DNA of 32,361 nucleotides, taken from assembly GCA_022822425.1 (NCBI GenBank), contig JAJEBS010000132.1, positions 1 to 32,361 of the forward strand. Direction: 5' to 3'. Every line of letters begins with the position of its first letter. Position 1 is the stretch's first letter. The position numbers and the translations under genes were made by a program. The notes below the pieces were generated by a model that saw only the letters and a list, made by a program, of their open reading frames with translations, did not search any database and was not told the DNA's origin. This DNA comes from Gemmatimonadota bacterium. Lineage in GTDB: Bacteria > Gemmatimonadota > Gemmatimonadetes > Longimicrobiales > Gaopeijiaceae. Below are positions 305 to 13,958 of the stretch, piece after piece.

Positions 305-727
305 ATGACCTCCAGGACGGCAGGCAACGCCCTGCGTGCCGCGATCTGCATCGCCCAGCGGGAATCGCCGGAACCGGTGACCGCGCAGGCGCTCGCCGCG
401 GAGCTCGACCTGCCGCGCAACTACCTGTCGAAGACGTTGCACCGGCTCGTCCAGGGAGGCGTGCTGCGTGCGATCCGCGGGAGAGGCGGCGGCTTTCGGC
501 TGGCAGCGTTGCCGGCGGAGATCTCGCTCCAGCGCGTCATCCACGCCATCGATCCGGACGGGCCCGAACGGCGCTGTCTGCTCGGGCGCCCGGAGTGCCT
601 GGAATCGCGTCCCTGCGCCACCCACCACCGCTGGTGCGAGGTGCGCGCAACCGTGGACCGGTTCTTTGCCGAGACGACGCTGGGCGACCTGCTGGCCCCG
701 GCCCCCGCGCTTCCTGGGCGCGCCTGA
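305..727 (+). CDS. Rrf2-family transcriptional regulator with Fe-S type cysteines
   Basis: A 140-residue protein with an Rrf2 winged-helix domain (about 5-85), including the wing 'RGRGGGFRLA' near residues 58-67. The effector region has Cys91, Cys98 and Cys104 (C-x6-C-x5-C), plus Cys111. IscR, NsrR and RsrR hold an Fe-S cluster with three cysteines in this region, and NsrR uses it to sense NO; the first spacing here is one residue longer than in IscR. The ATG at 305 is the only possible start, because an in-frame stop lies at 290-292. The stop is 28 bp before the next gene, so the regulator heads the heme-copper operon and probably controls itself. The signal could be NO, redox state or Fe-S status; NO is favoured only by the unusual active site of the downstream enzyme. 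Confidence 0.88.
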   Translation: MTSRTAGNALRAAICIAQRESPEPVTAQALAAELDLPRNYLSKTLHRLVQGGVLRAIRGRGGGFRLAALPAEISLQRVIHAIDPDGPERRCLLGRPECLESRPCATHHRWCEVRATVDRFFAETTLGDLLAPAPALPGRA

Positions 728-755: not shown

Positions 756-941
756 ATGTCGGACTCCGTCTCCCCTTCCCCGCCCCCGGGTCACGAGAAC
801 GAGACCCCCATTCCCCTCATGCAACGTCTCTACGACAGCCCGTTTCTGCTGCTCATCGCGTGCATCGTGGTGATGTTCGTGTTCTTCACCGCGTGGGGCA
901 TGATCGAAATCATGTCGCTCGAACCCGCACCCTTGCCGTAG
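756..941 (+). CDS. One-helix small subunit of the heme-copper enzyme
   Basis: A 61-residue protein preceded by a good ribosome site (AAGGAG, 741-746). The first 25 residues are Pro/Ser-rich and soluble; about 28-50 form one transmembrane helix (LLLIACIVVMFVFFTAWGMI), followed by a short tail. It sits 14 bp before subunit II. Small one-helix subunits are known in this position for ba3-type (subunit IIa) and cbb3-type (CcoQ) enzymes. By position and topology this is probably a structural or assembly subunit of the same complex. It has no catalytic motif, and sequence similarity alone would not name it. Confidence 0.65.
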   Translation: MSDSVSPSPPPGHENETPIPLMQRLYDSPFLLLIACIVVMFVFFTAWGMIEIMSLEPAPLP

Positions 942-955
942 GGAGGCCGCCACCG

Positions 956-1519
956 ATGTACCGAACGGGAATCGAGCCACCGGAACGGATCTGGTGGAAG
1001 AAGATCGACCGCCACGAGAAGGTATGGGTGTGGATCGCCTTCGCGTGGTGCATGGTGCTCTTCGCGATGATGCCCATCTGGCATCTGAGGGGCGGCCAGA
1101 ACCCCTCCGGGATCCGGCATCGCGTGGAGCCGTCCGACTACCAGGCCAGGGTCACGGAGTTCATACAGGAGTACCAGGTGGGCACGGACAACGGCTTTCC
1201 CGTGGTCGAGCCTCCCCCGGGGAGCGATGTCTACCTGCAGGCGACGAGTTTCGCATGGATGCCGGTGCTGCGGCTGCAGCAGGGAGCCGAGTACGTCCTC
1301 CATCTCTCGTCGCTGGACGTGAACCACGGGTTCAACCTGTACCCCCTCAACATCAATTTCCAGGTCGTTCCCGGATACGACTACGGCCTCCGGGTGGTCC
1401 CCAACGAGCCCGGTGAGTTCCACATCATCTGCAACGAGTTCTGCGGAATCGGCCACCACCTGATGGTCGGCAAGATCGTCGTGGAGCCGGCGGACGCGGA
1501 ACAGGGAGGTGACCGGTGA
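956..1519 (+). CDS. Heme-copper oxidoreductase subunit II (CuA domain)
   Basis: A 187-residue subunit II with a short cytosolic start, one membrane helix (about 23-42) and a periplasmic cupredoxin domain (about 90-180). The binuclear CuA ligands are all present: His124 in DVNHGF, then Cys159, Glu161, Cys163, His167 and Met170 in the CNEFCGIGHHLM segment (C-x3-C-x3-H-x2-M). A single helix rather than the usual two is typical of ba3/B-type enzymes and relatives. CuA takes electrons from cytochrome c or a blue copper protein and passes them to subunit I. The TGA stop overlaps the GTG start of subunit I (GTGA, 1516-1519), indicating translational coupling. Confidence 0.93.
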   Translation: MYRTGIEPPERIWWKKIDRHEKVWVWIAFAWCMVLFAMMPIWHLRGGQNPSGIRHRVEPSDYQARVTEFIQEYQVGTDNGFPVVEPPPGSDVYLQATSFAWMPVLRLQQGAEYVLHLSSLDVNHGFNLYPLNINFQVVPGYDYGLRVVPNEPGEFHIICNEFCGIGHHLMVGKIVVEPADAEQGGDR

Positions 1520-3237
1520 ACCTCTTCCGGACCTGCCCGACGACCGGCCTTCAGGTGCATCGAACCGCCGACCGCCTCATTCAGGCCAACGCGGTCGCGG
1601 CAACCGTCGCGCTTCTCATCGGCGGAGTCGCGGCGCTGCTCGTTCTGCTGACGCGCTGGGAGGTCGTCCTCCTCCTCGACGCCGGCATGTTCTACCGCAT
1701 GCTCACCGTGCATGGCATGAACATGCTCATCTTCTTCATCATCTTCTTCGAGATGGCGGTGCTCTACTTCGCCTCCGCCGTCCTGCTCAACTGCAGGGTG
1801 CCCGCGCCCAGGACCGGCTGGATCGCCTTCGCGCTCATGGTGATCGGGGCGCTGATGGTCGAGTGGACCATGTGGACCGGCCGGGCCGACGTGCTGTTCA
1901 CCTCCTACGTGCCGCTGCGGGCGCACCCGCTCTTCTACCTCGGGGTGATCCTGTTCGCGGTCGGGGCGCTCACCGTGGTCGGGCACTTCTTCGGCATCCT
2001 GACCATCGCGAGGCGCGAGAAGACGTTCGAGGGCTCGATGCCGCTGGTCACCTTCGGGGCGCTCACCGCGGCCGCGATCGCGGCGGTGACCCTGCTGCAC
2101 GGGGCGATCATCTACATCCCCACCTTCCTCTGGTCGCTCGGCCTGATGGAGGTGGATCCCCAGATGTACCGCCTGATCTGGTGGGGACTCGGCCACTCCT
2201 CGCAGCAGATCAACGTGGCCGCCATGGTCTCGATCTGGTACCTGCTGGGCGCGCTCACCGTGGGTGCGGTGGTCCTGAACGAGAAGGTGAGCCGGACCGC
2301 TTTCGTGCTCTACGTCCTGTTCATCTCGATGGCGTCCGCGCACCACCTGCTGGTCGACCCCGGGATGGGACCGGCGTGGAAGATCTGGAACACCAGCTAT
2401 TTCATGTACATGGCGGTCCTCGCCTCGATGCTCCACGGCTTTACCGTGCCGGCCGGCGTCGAGTTGGGGATGCGCCTGCGGGGGGCGGCCCAGGGGCTCT
2501 TCGGGTGGCTGAAGCGAGCGCCCTGGGGCGATCCGGGATTCAGCTCGCTGGCCTTCTCCATCGTGGTGTTCGGTTTCGTGGGCGGGATCACGGGAGTCAC
2601 CTTCGGCACCGAGCAGATCAACATCATCGCGCACAACACGCTCCGGATCCCCGGCCACTTCCACGCCACCGTCGTGTCGGGGACGGCGATGGCCTTCATG
2701 GGGATCACCTACTACGTCATTCCGCTCATCTTCCGGCGAGAGATCGCCTTCTACCCGCTCGCGCGCATCCAGCCCTACCTGTTTGCCGTCGGCATGCTGA
2801 TCTTCTCGATGGCGATGACCTTCGCGGGCACCTTCGGAATGCCGCGCCGGCACTGGAACGCCTCATTCACGGGCGCGGTCTTCCAGCCGGAGTTCTCGCC
2901 CGCCGTCAACCTCGTGATGGGGGTGATGGCGGTGGGCGGCCTCATCGCCATCGCCGGCGGCGCCATCTACATCGTGGTGACGGTGGTCTCGGTGTTCTTC
3001 GGGAAGAAGATGGCCGCGGACGACTCCGGGTTGGGCGCCGAGGGACGCGGACTGCCGCCGGGCATCACCCATCCGCCGCGCGCGCTGGTGGAGGAGGACA
3101 GGGCGGCGCTCGAGCCGGCGGGCCGCCTGGGGCCGGTTCCCGGAACGATGGTGCTGGTGTTCATCTTCCTGGCCGCGTTCATCACCTACTACTTCGTCAA
3201 CTGGGCGCTCCTGTCGTTCCTGTGGGAGGTGGGATGA
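1516..3237 (+). CDS. Heme-copper oxidoreductase subunit I, candidate nitric oxide reductase
   Basis: A 573-residue, multi-helix catalytic subunit starting at GTG. Metal ligands are visible: His66 (VHGMNM, low-spin heme), His227 (CuB), His276-His277 (SAHHLLVDPG, CuB), His381 (high-spin heme) and His383 (low-spin heme, in GHFHATVV). The overall form and the one-helix CuA subunit II resemble B-type (ba3) enzymes. In A/B-type oxygen reductases the residue four after the first CuB His is the Tyr cross-linked to it (HPEVY). Here the segment is GHSSQQINVA, so that position is Gln231. Loss of this Tyr is a hallmark of NO-reducing heme-copper families, including CuA-containing ones such as eNOR. Automatic naming would be 'cytochrome c oxidase subunit I'; NO reduction is inferred, not shown. 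Confidence 0.9.
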   Translation: MNLFRTCPTTGLQVHRTADRLIQANAVAATVALLIGGVAALLVLLTRWEVVLLLDAGMFYRMLTVHGMNMLIFFIIFFEMAVLYFASAVLLNCRVPAPRTGWIAFALMVIGALMVEWTMWTGRADVLFTSYVPLRAHPLFYLGVILFAVGALTVVGHFFGILTIARREKTFEGSMPLVTFGALTAAAIAAVTLLHGAIIYIPTFLWSLGLMEVDPQMYRLIWWGLGHSSQQINVAAMVSIWYLLGALTVGAVVLNEKVSRTAFVLYVLFISMASAHHLLVDPGMGPAWKIWNTSYFMYMAVLASMLHGFTVPAGVELGMRLRGAAQGLFGWLKRAPWGDPGFSSLAFSIVVFGFVGGITGVTFGTEQINIIAHNTLRIPGHFHATVVSGTAMAFMGITYYVIPLIFRREIAFYPLARIQPYLFAVGMLIFSMAMTFAGTFGMPRRHWNASFTGAVFQPEFSPAVNLVMGVMAVGGLIAIAGGAIYIVVTVVSVFFGKKMAADDSGLGAEGRGLPPGITHPPRALVEEDRAALEPAGRLGPVPGTMVLVFIFLAAFITYYFVNWALLSFLWEVG

Positions 3238-4250
3238 GCGAGCGGAGAGACGCTCACGCGGCCGCCGCCGGGGCTTCCGCGGGCGGGGCGGGCCGCGGGC
3301 CGGCGGGCGGAAACGACGAGCCCGCGCAGGCGGCTGTTCGCGGAGCGATGGCGGCCATGGCAGCGCTGCTCGCGATCACGGTCGCGTGGTGGGCGCTGGC
3401 GCTCTGGCCGGTGCCGGGGGTCCCGCCGGCGTGGCTGGAGCGTGCCCGCCAGGTGTGCTTCAACGCGGGTCCCTCCGGCCTCCCCGACGCTTCCGGGTGG
3501 ATACTCCTGGTGGGCCAGCCCATCGGCATGCTGGCGGTGCTCATGGTGATCGCGGGGGATGCGGTGCGGGAGGGGCTCGTGCGGGCGAGGGAGAGATCGG
3601 CGGGCCGGGTCGCGCTCGCGGCGGGCGCCGGGGTGGTCGTGGCGGGAACGGCGCTGGCGGTCGTGCGCGTTGCCGGGGCCCCGGGGGACTCCGAGTGGCT
3701 GGAGGCGGCCCGCGCCGAGGTGCCCGCCACCTATCCGCGCCTGGACCGCCGCCTTCCGGCCATCGAGCTCGTCGACCAGCACGGCGACGCGTTCACCTGG
3801 GAGCGCATCGCGGGCCGCCCGGCGCTCCTGACCTTCGGCTTCGGGCACTGCGAGACCGTCTGTCCCATGACGGTCATGAACGCGCGCCGGGTCCAGGACC
3901 GTTTCCGGGGGGAGGGCCGGGAGATGGCGCTGGTGGTGATCACGCTCGATCCCTGGCGCGACACTCCCTCCCGGCTTCCCGCCCTGGCGCGACAGTTCCA
4001 CCTCGGCGGCGAGGGTTCGCACGCGCATGCGGAGGAGGGCGGGGAGGACGCCCGATCCTTCCTCCTGTCCGGCACGGTAGACGACGTCAACGCGGCGCTC
4101 GACGCGTTGCAGGTGGCCCGCGAGCGGGTGCCGCGCACGGGAGACATCGTGCATCCGGCTCTCGTGTACCTGCTGGACGCGGAGGGTACGGTGGTCTACG
4201 CTGCGAGTGGGCACGCCGACCTGATCGAGGAGCTGGCGCGCCGCATGTAG
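3234..4250 (+). CDS. SCO/SenC family copper chaperone with N-terminal membrane domain
   Basis: A 338-residue protein whose ATG overlaps the subunit I stop (ATGA, 3234-3237). Residues about 165-338 form a thioredoxin-like SCO domain with the copper-binding pair Cys206-x3-Cys210 (GHCETVCP) and the distal His307 (DIVHPAL). SCO proteins deliver copper to, or reduce, the CuA site, which fits the adjacent subunit II. The first 150 residues are unusual for SCO: a basic, Ala/Gly-rich head, then three likely membrane helices (about 36-60, 88-109, 125-147) with a conserved-looking loop around CFNAGPSGLPDASGW. Typical SCO proteins have one anchor helix and about 200 residues. The extra domain may be a fused subunit of the complex; its role is unknown. 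Confidence 0.85.
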   Translation: MSERRDAHAAAAGASAGGAGRGPAGGNDEPAQAAVRGAMAAMAALLAITVAWWALALWPVPGVPPAWLERARQVCFNAGPSGLPDASGWILLVGQPIGMLAVLMVIAGDAVREGLVRARERSAGRVALAAGAGVVVAGTALAVVRVAGAPGDSEWLEAARAEVPATYPRLDRRLPAIELVDQHGDAFTWERIAGRPALLTFGFGHCETVCPMTVMNARRVQDRFRGEGREMALVVITLDPWRDTPSRLPALARQFHLGGEGSHAHAEEGGEDARSFLLSGTVDDVNAALDALQVARERVPRTGDIVHPALVYLLDAEGTVVYAASGHADLIEELARRM

Positions 4251-12415: not shown

Positions 12416-13666
12416 TTACGGCCCCAGCGCCCCGATCGGAATCACGCTCACCCCGTCTTCCCGCGTGTAGCCGTAGCCGCTGCTCACGATCAGACCGAGC
12501 GCTGCCGGCTCGCCCATGCGCTTCGGGTCCACCCGTTGCGCCAGTCGCAGCAGGTTGGCGGCGCCCGCATCCGCTCGGCCCTCGCCGAGCTTGACCTCGA
12601 AGGCCGCCCAGCGACCGTCGTTGGCCTGTACGATCGCGTCGACCTCCAGACCGCCCTTCTCGCGGTAGTGGAAGACATCGGCGTCTGCGGCTTGGGCATA
12701 GACGCGCAGATCCCGGACCACCATCGACTCGAAGAGGAGCCCCAGGAAGTCGAGGTCGCGGAGCAGCCGAGGAGGCGTCGCGCGGACGGCGGCCACGGCG
12801 AGAGCCGGATCCGCGAGGTGCCGGATTGGCTTGCTCCTCAGAACCGATCTCGATCTCAGATGCGTCGGCCATGCCGGCTGGTTCTCCACGATCATGATGC
12901 GCTCCAGCGCCCGAATATAGTCGGCCGCGGTGTGCTCCCTGATTGCGGACACGCCTTCGCCGGTGTCCGAGGCAAGGGTCGCGGTCGCCACGGGCGTGGC
13001 GACGTTCCTCGCCAGGGACCGAAGGAGCATGCTTACCCGCACAGGGTCTCGCTTTCTGCCGTCGCCATTGGCGATGTCGAGGCGCCGGATCTCGTCGAGA
13101 TGATCCCTGTTGGCGCGGAGCGCCGTTTGCGTGCTGCGCCCAAGGTTGACGGGCCAGCCGCCTACGCAGATCAACTCCGCCAGGTCATCGAGGAGGATTA
13201 CCGATCTGCCAGCCGTGGCGGGCGTCCCCTCCAGGAGACCGGCCAGCGAGACTTCGCCGGACGAATGACCCAGTTCGAACAGCGAGAGCGGTCGCATGCG
13301 GAGACGCGTCAGGCGCCCGGCGCCGGTATGTCGGGTGGCGTCGTCAGCCGGCACCGCCGACCCGGTAAGGATGAACTGACCCGGCTGGCGCCGATCGTCC
13401 ACGGCCCTGCGCACGTGGTTCCAGATCGCCGGCTCCAGCTGCCATTCGTCGATCAACCGCGGGACGTTGCCGACCAGCACGCGGGCCGGTTCGAGGCTGG
13501 CCAGGCGTCGCGCCACATCGTCCACGTCGAGCCGCACTTCGCTGGCGGCGATCTGCTGCGCCGTGGTGGTCTTTCCGCAGGCCCGAGGGCCCTCAATCAC
13601 GACTGCGCCGGTGGCCTGCAGGCGCTCGGCCAGTTCGCGATCGACGATCCTGGGCTGGTAGGTCAT
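12416..13666 (-). CDS. AAA_14/DUF4143 ATP-binding protein
   Basis: A 416-residue protein. The N-terminal AAA+ domain has Walker A GPRACGKTT (26-34, Lys32), Walker B-like RLIDEW (70-75) and the sensor segment ILTGSA (99-104). The C-terminal DUF4143 region (about 200-390) ends in a nuclease-like fold (VDAIVQANDGRWAAFEVKLG). The start at 13666 (MTYQPRIVDREL) matches the usual N-terminus of the family, although the frame is open further upstream to 13795; no clear ribosome site precedes it. These ATPases are widespread, variable between strains and often mobile; their role is unknown. Four 23-bp repeats lie 110-200 bp upstream. The gene is convergent with the TonB-like gene, 36 bp apart. Confidence 0.88.
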   Translation of the reverse strand: MTYQPRIVDRELAERLQATGAVVIEGPRACGKTTTAQQIAASEVRLDVDDVARRLASLEPARVLVGNVPRLIDEWQLEPAIWNHVRRAVDDRRQPGQFILTGSAVPADDATRHTGAGRLTRLRMRPLSLFELGHSSGEVSLAGLLEGTPATAGRSVILLDDLAELICVGGWPVNLGRSTQTALRANRDHLDEIRRLDIANGDGRKRDPVRVSMLLRSLARNVATPVATATLASDTGEGVSAIREHTAADYIRALERIMIVENQPAWPTHLRSRSVLRSKPIRHLADPALAVAAVRATPPRLLRDLDFLGLLFESMVVRDLRVYAQAADADVFHYREKGGLEVDAIVQANDGRWAAFEVKLGEGRADAGAANLLRLAQRVDPKRMGEPAALGLIVSSGYGYTREDGVSVIPIGALGP

Positions 13667-13958
13667 GTTGGTACCGGCATGGGGGGCTGGCGAGTCCGGT
13701 TGATCGAAGATGGCCGGGGGTTTGTCGGGCCAGCCGCACGAGGATGGTAACCGTCGGGAAGGCTTCAGGGAAGGTGTCAGCGTCAGATTCGGCATCGTAT
13801 CAGCGTCAGAAATGGCGCCCTATTGATGACAGATTTGGCGTATTGCCAACGCCAGAAATGGCGCAGCCAGACGGCGAGTTTCAGCCGCAACTCTCCTGCA
13901 CTCCTCGATCCACGCGCCAATCGAGGTCCGGCGGGCGGCCACTCGGCGGGCGGTCCGG
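13667..13958. promoter_or_regulatory. Upstream region of the DUF4143 ATPase gene
   Basis: This 292-bp stretch lies between two leftward genes. Its only clear content is the 23-bp tandem repeat block (13776-13867). The remainder on both sides is plain GC-rich sequence in which I see no gene, terminator or promoter hexamers. Confidence 0.4.
13776..13867. repeat. Four imperfect 23-bp tandem repeats
   Basis: Units start at 13776, 13799, 13822 and 13845, each exactly 23 bp. The shared core reads CAGAWWYGGCRYM at 13784, 13807, 13830 and 13853 (CAGATTCGGCATC, CAGAAATGGCGCC, CAGATTTGGCGTA, CAGAAATGGCGCA). The last copy contains the dyad GCCA-N4-TGGC, and TTGGC-GTATT-GCCAA spans copies three and four. 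The period is not a multiple of three, so it is not a coding repeat. There are no unique spacers, so it is not a CRISPR array. The position upstream of the ATPase start suggests repeated protein-binding sites. Confidence 0.8.

Follow-up and report, generated by a model that had tools for sequence, protein, structure and literature searches.

We analysed a 32,361-nt stretch of DNA, here called the window, which is contig JAJEBS010000132.1 of a Gemmatimonadota bacterium assembly (GCA_022822425.1; GTDB family Gaopeijiaceae). Near its start lies an operon encoding a heme-copper enzyme whose subunit I is a candidate nitric oxide (NO) reductase of the family known as eNOR (Table 1). A regulator gene of the Rrf2 family and a gene for a small one-helix protein precede the genes for a CuA-bearing subunit II and for subunit I, and a gene for a SCO-type copper chaperone follows them. 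The operon is faced, across an operator-like dyad, by a divergent gene for a cytochrome b fused to ferredoxin and FlpD regions, which the contig end cuts. An M28 peptidase gene and transporter genes found 3' of the operon lie outside the unit.

Table 1. Features of the heme-copper locus in the window. Relatives are the 80 distinct species-genome loci described in the text.
Feature	Coordinates	Strand	Basis and remarks
Cytochrome b-2x[4Fe-4S]-FlpD fusion, first 42 codons	1..126	-	translation MLKRILGRSLRRVDAWLDRLYGWKWNPLYQSGAVVVVCLAVV; divergent; contig end cuts gene
Operator-like dyad, family consensus TTTATCATATNNTCATGATAAA	243..264	.	exact core TCATATNNTCATG at 247-259
Rrf2-family regulator, C91, C98, C104, H107	305..727	+	PF02082 E=2.4e-28; TIGR00738 over cut-off
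61-residue one-helix protein, candidate third subunit	756..941	+	no Pfam match; beside 75/80 relatives
Subunit II, cupredoxin with CuA site	956..1519	+	PF00116 over cut-off; beside 77/80 relatives
Subunit I of eNOR-type NO reductase, candidate	1516..3237	+	PF00115 E=6.9e-59; Gln231 at Tyr site
SCO1/SenC copper chaperone fused to N-terminal membrane region	3234..4250	+	PF02630 E=6.8e-26, residues 178-319; beside 78/80 relatives

Active site of subunit I

Translation of the subunit I gene gave a protein of 573 residues, whose GTG start overlaps the stop of subunit II, and confirmed the coordinates and residue numbering of a preliminary description of this DNA. All six heme and CuB ligands reported there are present (H66, H227, H276, H277, H381 and H383), as is its central observation, a Gln in place of the active-site Tyr. 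The motif GHSSQQ spans G226-H227-S228-S229-Q230-Q231, with Q231 (codon at 2206-2208) four residues after H227. HMMER alignment pairs Q231 with the Tyr, and Q230 with the Val, of the B-type oxidase motif, the motif being compared by what we take to be the residue numbers of the ba3 enzyme. Subunit I scored 61 bits with the CtaD oxidase equivalog model, whose cut-off is 671.

Position 231 was compared across 92 aligned subunit I sequences (the window and 91 open frames), in which it was Gln in 86 and Tyr in six. The relatives were the best 80 of 114 candidate species-genome stretches encoding them, with plasmid homologues added. The Gln rows comprise the window, its own copy in the set (L003), all 80 species-genome loci and four plasmid homologues; the Tyr rows are the second oxidase of the window's own genome (L002) and five plasmid homologues. 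Because the set was collected by similarity to the window, the 86 Gln rows, which were grouped by residue 231 itself, are no random sample of oxidases. Within these rows H227, Q230, N233, V238, Y242, H276, H277, S304, H307 and H381 are invariant, H66 is present in 85 (the remaining row is gapped there) and position 383 is His in 84 and Lys in two, both from Thermus. The six Tyr rows carry V, W, Y, Y, S or T, and T at columns 230, 233, 238, 242, 304 and 307, so that the difference extends over a whole block, taking in the surroundings of the active site and of the proton path of the B family. As a candidate proton path, S304, H307 and Y242 are found in 86/86 Gln rows and T310 in 83/86, and E21 of subunit II in 95/96 rows; Ser304, Thr310, Tyr242 and His307 are presumably the equivalents of the residues that form the ba3 path of the B family.

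Two unusual forms of subunit I were seen among the homologues. Three Thermus thermophilus plasmid genes, L086 (11995-13680), L087 (11995-13677) and L134 (2495-4180), read GHFK, with the His of the low-spin heme changed to Lys; L134 is almost the same as L086, so these are essentially two alleles. In a Burkholderiales locus (L083, 5467-7680) subunit I lies within an unusually long open frame of 738 codons, and the queries used at the other loci found neither a separate subunit II nor the small protein beside it.

An AlphaFold model of subunit I, built with 59 sequences (the window and 58 of the 80 loci), reached a predicted local distance difference test score (pLDDT) of 82.4, with values below 50 at residues 129-132, 278-280 and 364-378. 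Its closest solved folds were the B-type oxidases 7deg and 1xme (Foldseek template modelling (TM) score 0.77-0.79, root-mean-square deviation 7.3-7.8 Å).

Conserved residues were also tallied in the products of the neighbouring operon genes. In subunit II all CuA ligands (H124, C159, C163, H167 and M170) are retained, in 96/96 rows, and Q23, W47 and G48 of the 61-residue protein in 92/92. The SCO domain has C206 and C210 in 89/89 rows and H307 in 88/89, while its N-terminal membrane region has C75, G88 and W89 in 88/89 and P96 in 89/89. That region, which has no Pfam coverage, carries a broader motif (C75, F76, G82, P84, G88, W89 and P96) in 86 to 89 of 89 rows. These row counts include duplicate loci of the same genomes, as did tallies over 98 loci; linkage counts were therefore taken from the 80 distinct species-genome loci, searched with the same queries, at some of which the contig ends early.

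Probable assignment to the eNOR family

The eNOR enzymes are reportedly a heme-copper NO reductase family, set out by Hemp and Gennis in 2008 and by Murali and colleagues in 2024, with a characterised member from Rhodothermus marinus. Gln at the Tyr site is given as the eNOR criterion in the available text of PMC8756737, whose table lists Tyr for O2 reductases, Glu for cNOR and qNOR, Asn for sNOR, Gln for eNOR, Asp for gNOR and Asn for CuANOR, and which places the eNOR cupredoxin subunit II directly upstream. Excerpts of other papers describe eNOR as biochemically characterised and related to the B family (PMC11388526), report NO reductase activity for the B-family subtype ba3-a1, renamed eNOR (PMC8879329), and propose a proton channel for eNOR (PMC8114936; PMC10734462). 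Because Gln occupies the site solely in eNOR within that table, and the enzyme encoded here is also CuA-bearing and related to the B family, the family can be named.

Relationships were examined in a tree of 52 rows (IQ-TREE, LG+C20+F+G4, drawn with midpoint rooting, long branches flagged), which held 31 of the 86 Gln rows together with A-type, cbb3-type, B-type and one NorB-like row; two fragments (L121 and L122) were excluded, as was L131, whose active site is masked. The A, B and NorB-like labels rest on motifs that we take to be diagnostic, the NorB-like row (L120) being labelled in this way; the four cbb3-type rows exceed the ccoN cut-off, and L120 matches ccoN below it. The 31 Gln rows fell on one side of a branch with support of 100/100 and adjoined 12 Tyr-bearing B-family rows (85/77), with the A, C and NorB-like rows placed elsewhere and L120, the sole NorB-like sequence, among the C-type rows. 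The protein thus lies outside the clade of Tyr-bearing oxidases; placement within a clade of proven O2 reductases had been named in the preliminary description as grounds for giving up its reading. Gln homologues from Thermus group with the other Gln rows; the eNOR set of PMC8756737, in the portion available, also names a Thermus sequence, not necessarily one of these.

The second ground named there, a Tyr supplied from another helix, was likewise not borne out: the C-type position in helix VII, which precedes the HH pair by six residues, is occupied by Ile270 in the window and by Ile (84) or Leu (2) across the 86 Gln rows. A Tyr stands at this position in the four cbb3-type rows and also in the NorB-like L120, so this residue by itself does not mark the C type. 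Helix VII also holds Tyr266, found in 86/86 Gln rows; as a possible substitute for the missing Tyr it was dropped, since it precedes H276 by ten residues rather than six. An A- or C-type oxidase was rejected on the tree together with the missing C-type Tyr. B-family O2 reductases are defined by a Tyr four residues after the CuB His, where this protein has Q231, and cNOR and qNOR by Glu at the site in a NorB-type sequence; here the residue is Gln, and the NorB-like row sits with the C-type rows.

A B-family oxygen reductase that has lost its Tyr, still reduces O2 and has NO reduction as at most a side activity would agree with the closest solved folds, which are those of B-type O2 reductases, and with the named homologue records, which are annotated as cytochrome oxidase. 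The ba3 oxidases, moreover, reduce some NO. We nevertheless regard this alternative as very improbable: besides the Tyr, the motif Val and Trp, the second Tyr and the path Thr are replaced in all 86 Gln rows, no substitute Tyr stands at the C-type site, the host genome already holds two other heme-copper oxidases, both with Tyr, the gene is associated with NirK (see below), and eNOR activity is reported in an excerpt of PMC8879329. Membership of another CuA-bearing or B-related NO reductase family (bNOR/CuANOR, sNOR, gNOR or nNOR) is scarcely credible. These families have a common origin in the B family, and such descriptions as exist give them a cupredoxin as subunit II (PMC8756737 and PMC11388526, as far as their available text goes); their published site residues, however, are Asn (sNOR and CuANOR) and Asp (gNOR), with Glu in cNOR and qNOR and Gln only in eNOR, the residue of nNOR falling outside the available text.

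Judged by the published descriptions of the family, then, the enzyme encoded at 1516-3237 is very probably an eNOR: it has Gln at the Tyr site, six His ligands, a CuA subunit II upstream and a position outside the Tyr-bearing B family. It would be a new member of a known family, with NO reduction as its predicted activity, which bears out the earlier suggestion of a CuA-type NO reductase or other non-standard heme-copper enzyme and gives a name to a family that had been left open. In such an enzyme the CuA site of subunit II would receive the electrons and hand them to the low-spin heme (H66/H383), from which they would reach the site formed by the high-spin heme (H381) and CuB (H227, H276 and H277), where 2 NO, 2 electrons and 2 protons would yield N2O. 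Gln231 would take the place of the O2-splitting His-Tyr cofactor, nearby His307 (Thr in all six Tyr rows) may belong to the B-family proton path and supply, and SCO would load the copper.

A linked cytochrome b-FlpD gene and the operator-like dyad

The divergent gene, of which the window holds only the start, continues on another contig of the same genome, where residues 65-513 are encoded (G000:C71:17861-19207); as the gene is split between the end of C71 and the start of the window's contig (C47), the two contigs probably adjoin. A full-length version (L104:3329-4870, minus strand) occurs in G081, a genome with a 99%-identical subunit I, and matches Cytochrome_B, Fer4_7 and FlpD. In an alignment of 75 homologues, duplicates included and three short open frames omitted, the heme ligands H79, H93, H180 and H194 are present in all rows, eight ferredoxin Cys in 73 to 75, and C382, C402, C427 and C432 of the FlpD region in 72 or 73.

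The gene keeps close company with eNOR. Among 96 genomes of the same family, searched at E<=1e-80 for eNOR subunit I and at E<=1e-30 for the cytochrome b protein, it was found in 24 of the 25 eNOR carriers (G070 being the carrier without it) and in none of the 71 others. Across 121 genomes of the phylum, a sample that shares genomes with the family set, is assumed to be the same draw in both searches and has its non-matching genomes mostly unlisted, the figures were 29/30 and 1/91; the carrier lacking it (G187) has its own eNOR gene cut at a contig end, and the sole genome with it and no eNOR match is G181. At 68 of the 80 loci it lies beside eNOR, divergently upstream in 46, codirectionally downstream in 21 and codirectionally upstream in one. 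It is missing despite full flanks at four loci (L036, L039, L063 and L083, the last with a more distant copy) and at eight with short flanks. A tblastn search of 72,556 plasmid records found it in one, where it adjoins eNOR. Defluviimonas sp. SAOS-178 (L084), a culturable and non-pathogenic organism, carries both genes.

A protein of about 170-200 residues adjoins this cytochrome b. Its model (pLDDT 90.2, using 53 of 57 computed reference sequences) shows a single helix together with beta strands; His79 and Met80 occur in 53/53 rows of one alignment and in 66/67 and 67/67 rows, respectively, of another, and two Cys are nearly invariant. It was considered as a known cupredoxin or cytochrome and rejected as such, because neither Pfam nor NCBIfam gave a match and the PDB gave none of significance by sequence or by fold (best Foldseek E 0.045). 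The cytochrome b and this small neighbour match the same open frame at 11 loci (including L052, L060 and L077), where they evidently form a natural fusion.

From this linkage we tentatively propose, giving the idea appreciably less than an even chance, that the eNOR clade is half of an NO-reducing module, the other half being the cytochrome b, with two [4Fe-4S] clusters and FlpD on what would be a cytoplasmic tail, and the membrane-anchored beta-sandwich protein with its conserved His-Met. The cytochrome b would act as the electron donor of eNOR, passing electrons from a cytoplasmic Fe-S/flavin donor or from quinol across the membrane to CuA and so bypassing complex III, and in members with Rrf2 one operator would turn on the two halves jointly. 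Electrons would then reach a heme-copper enzyme by a new input route. A little under even odds may be given to the alternative that the cytochrome b-ferredoxin-FlpD protein is unrelated to eNOR turnover, being for example a regulon sensor or a repair protein, and that eNOR is fed only by a cytochrome c or cupredoxin from complex III. The rest of the host genome holds three Rieske-domain matches over cut-off, which make complex III, and with it an ordinary electron route, possible. The fetched stretches of the Thermomicrobium, Thermus, L036/L132, L039 and L063 eNOR loci hold no such gene, and in G181 the cytochrome b and its neighbour occur although eNOR is absent. Against the alternative stand the near-strict co-occurrence and a linkage that survives rearrangement, divergent upstream or codirectional downstream, across several phyla. 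In G181 the pair (L135, 5969-8918) adjoins a match to the heme O/A synthase query, and this genome offers a natural case for finding a role of the module apart from eNOR. No electron donor is named in the open-access eNOR literature examined, as far as its available text goes; with a redox-rich gene nearly always beside eNOR, the question can be tested directly.

The dyad lies between the divergent starts of the cytochrome b fusion and the eNOR operon. Of the 36 distinct sequences that precede Rrf2, 35 match the consensus at 13 or more of its 20 positions, a level reached by 8 of 720 mononucleotide shuffles; this count is partly circular because the consensus was drawn from those same regions, several of them near-identical. 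The window's dyad is the weakest of the 35, matching 13/20 overall with a poorly matching right arm. Its exact core occurs once in the 4.4-Mb assembly, and the reversed control not at all; the core is short, and when up to two mismatches are allowed its frequency in the window does not exceed chance. G181 has no core at zero or one mismatch, and its two matches at two mismatches are near chance. The Rrf2 protein, whose C91, C98, C104 and H107 are present in 45/45 aligned rows, some genomes being represented more than once, is a probable Fe-S sensor and is predicted to bind the dyad. A single regulon for both divergent units is the simplest reading, in which the regulator would occupy one operator spanning both and might sense NO. 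The Thermus homologues adjoin Rrf2 and DUF542 genes.

Nitrogen context and comparison with known systems

The distribution of eNOR is patchy (2/8 genomes of the genus and 25/96 of the family), as expected of an accessory trait. NirK over cut-off was found in 8 of the 25 family carriers and 6 of the 71 others (Fisher p=0.0077, uncorrected for kinship). It also lies within the fetched flanks of six of the 80 loci (L027, L033, L039, L052, L065 and L073); on the contig of L027, at L103, SCO is followed by one methyltransferase gene and then NirK. An operon holding both eNOR and NirK is described for Ardenticatena in the available text of PMC4653789.

Several observations weigh against the NO reductase reading and its regulation by Rrf2. 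The Rrf2 gene is beside only 36 of the 80 relatives, 17 of the 25 carriers have no NirK above cut-off, and the co-occurrence tests ignore relatedness. Sec-type NosZ shows no co-occurrence with eNOR (6/25 carriers and 16/71 others, p=1), and a link of eNOR to N2O reduction was rejected on this ground. Neither NirK nor Sec-type NosZ exceeds its cut-off in the window's own assembly (89% complete), where the search covered these and not nirS, Tat-type nosZ or nitrate reductases. In a host of this kind NO clean-up would be likelier than a full pathway, and its eNOR likely removes NO made by others or by chemistry.

An explanation by eNOR of the Gemmatimonadota reported without nor in PMC12569097 was considered and dropped, because the Nor set of that study, as its available text gives it, already included eNOR. 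The named plasmid homologues found here bear cytochrome oxidase names, and the accessible text of PMC8756737 calls many putative eNOR subunits mislabelled. Since standard annotation is cytochrome c oxidase, a capacity to reduce NO and produce N2O can be missed. Two other genes of the window may be recorded in passing: an AAA_14-DUF4143 ATPase (12416-13795, minus strand) that matches candidate defence family PDC-S01 in PADLOC (E=3.6e-67), and a 712-residue catalase-peroxidase-like protein with two heme-peroxidase stretches (PF00141; 30133-32271, minus strand).

Compared by published description, the enzyme resembles eNOR in the Gln at the Tyr site, the six His ligands, the CuA subunit II directly upstream and the kinship with the B family, and no difference from eNOR was shown. 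With the ba3-type oxidase of Thermus thermophilus (1xme) it shares the fold (Foldseek TM score 0.77 by query and 0.79 by target, root-mean-square deviation 7.8 Å over 573 columns), the His ligands, CuA and what we take to be the path residues Ser304, Thr310 and Tyr242. It differs in having Gln231 for Tyr, Gln230 for Val, Asn233 for Trp, Val238 for Tyr and His307 for Thr, and in falling in a separate tree group. The CuANOR/bNOR of Bacillus is likewise CuA-bearing and akin to the B family, but it carries Asn at the site in the table of PMC8756737, where the window has Gln.

The linked cytochrome b protein has its nearest counterparts in the C-terminal region of HdrA2 and in MvhD/FlpD carriers, with which it shares the order of ferredoxin and FlpD. 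Its link with eNOR does not appear in the open-access literature searched, which did not include the defining eNOR paper and was available in part; one row in an appendix table of PMC8756737 records a Chloroflexi open reading frame with cytochrome b6, FeS and FlpD matches, untied there to eNOR. Residues 275-487 of the protein match HdrA2 residues 556-769 at 47.9 bits, far below the whole-protein cut-off of 1100. Where HdrA2, in the layout that we presume for it, has a flavin part, the protein linked to eNOR has a four-His cytochrome b.

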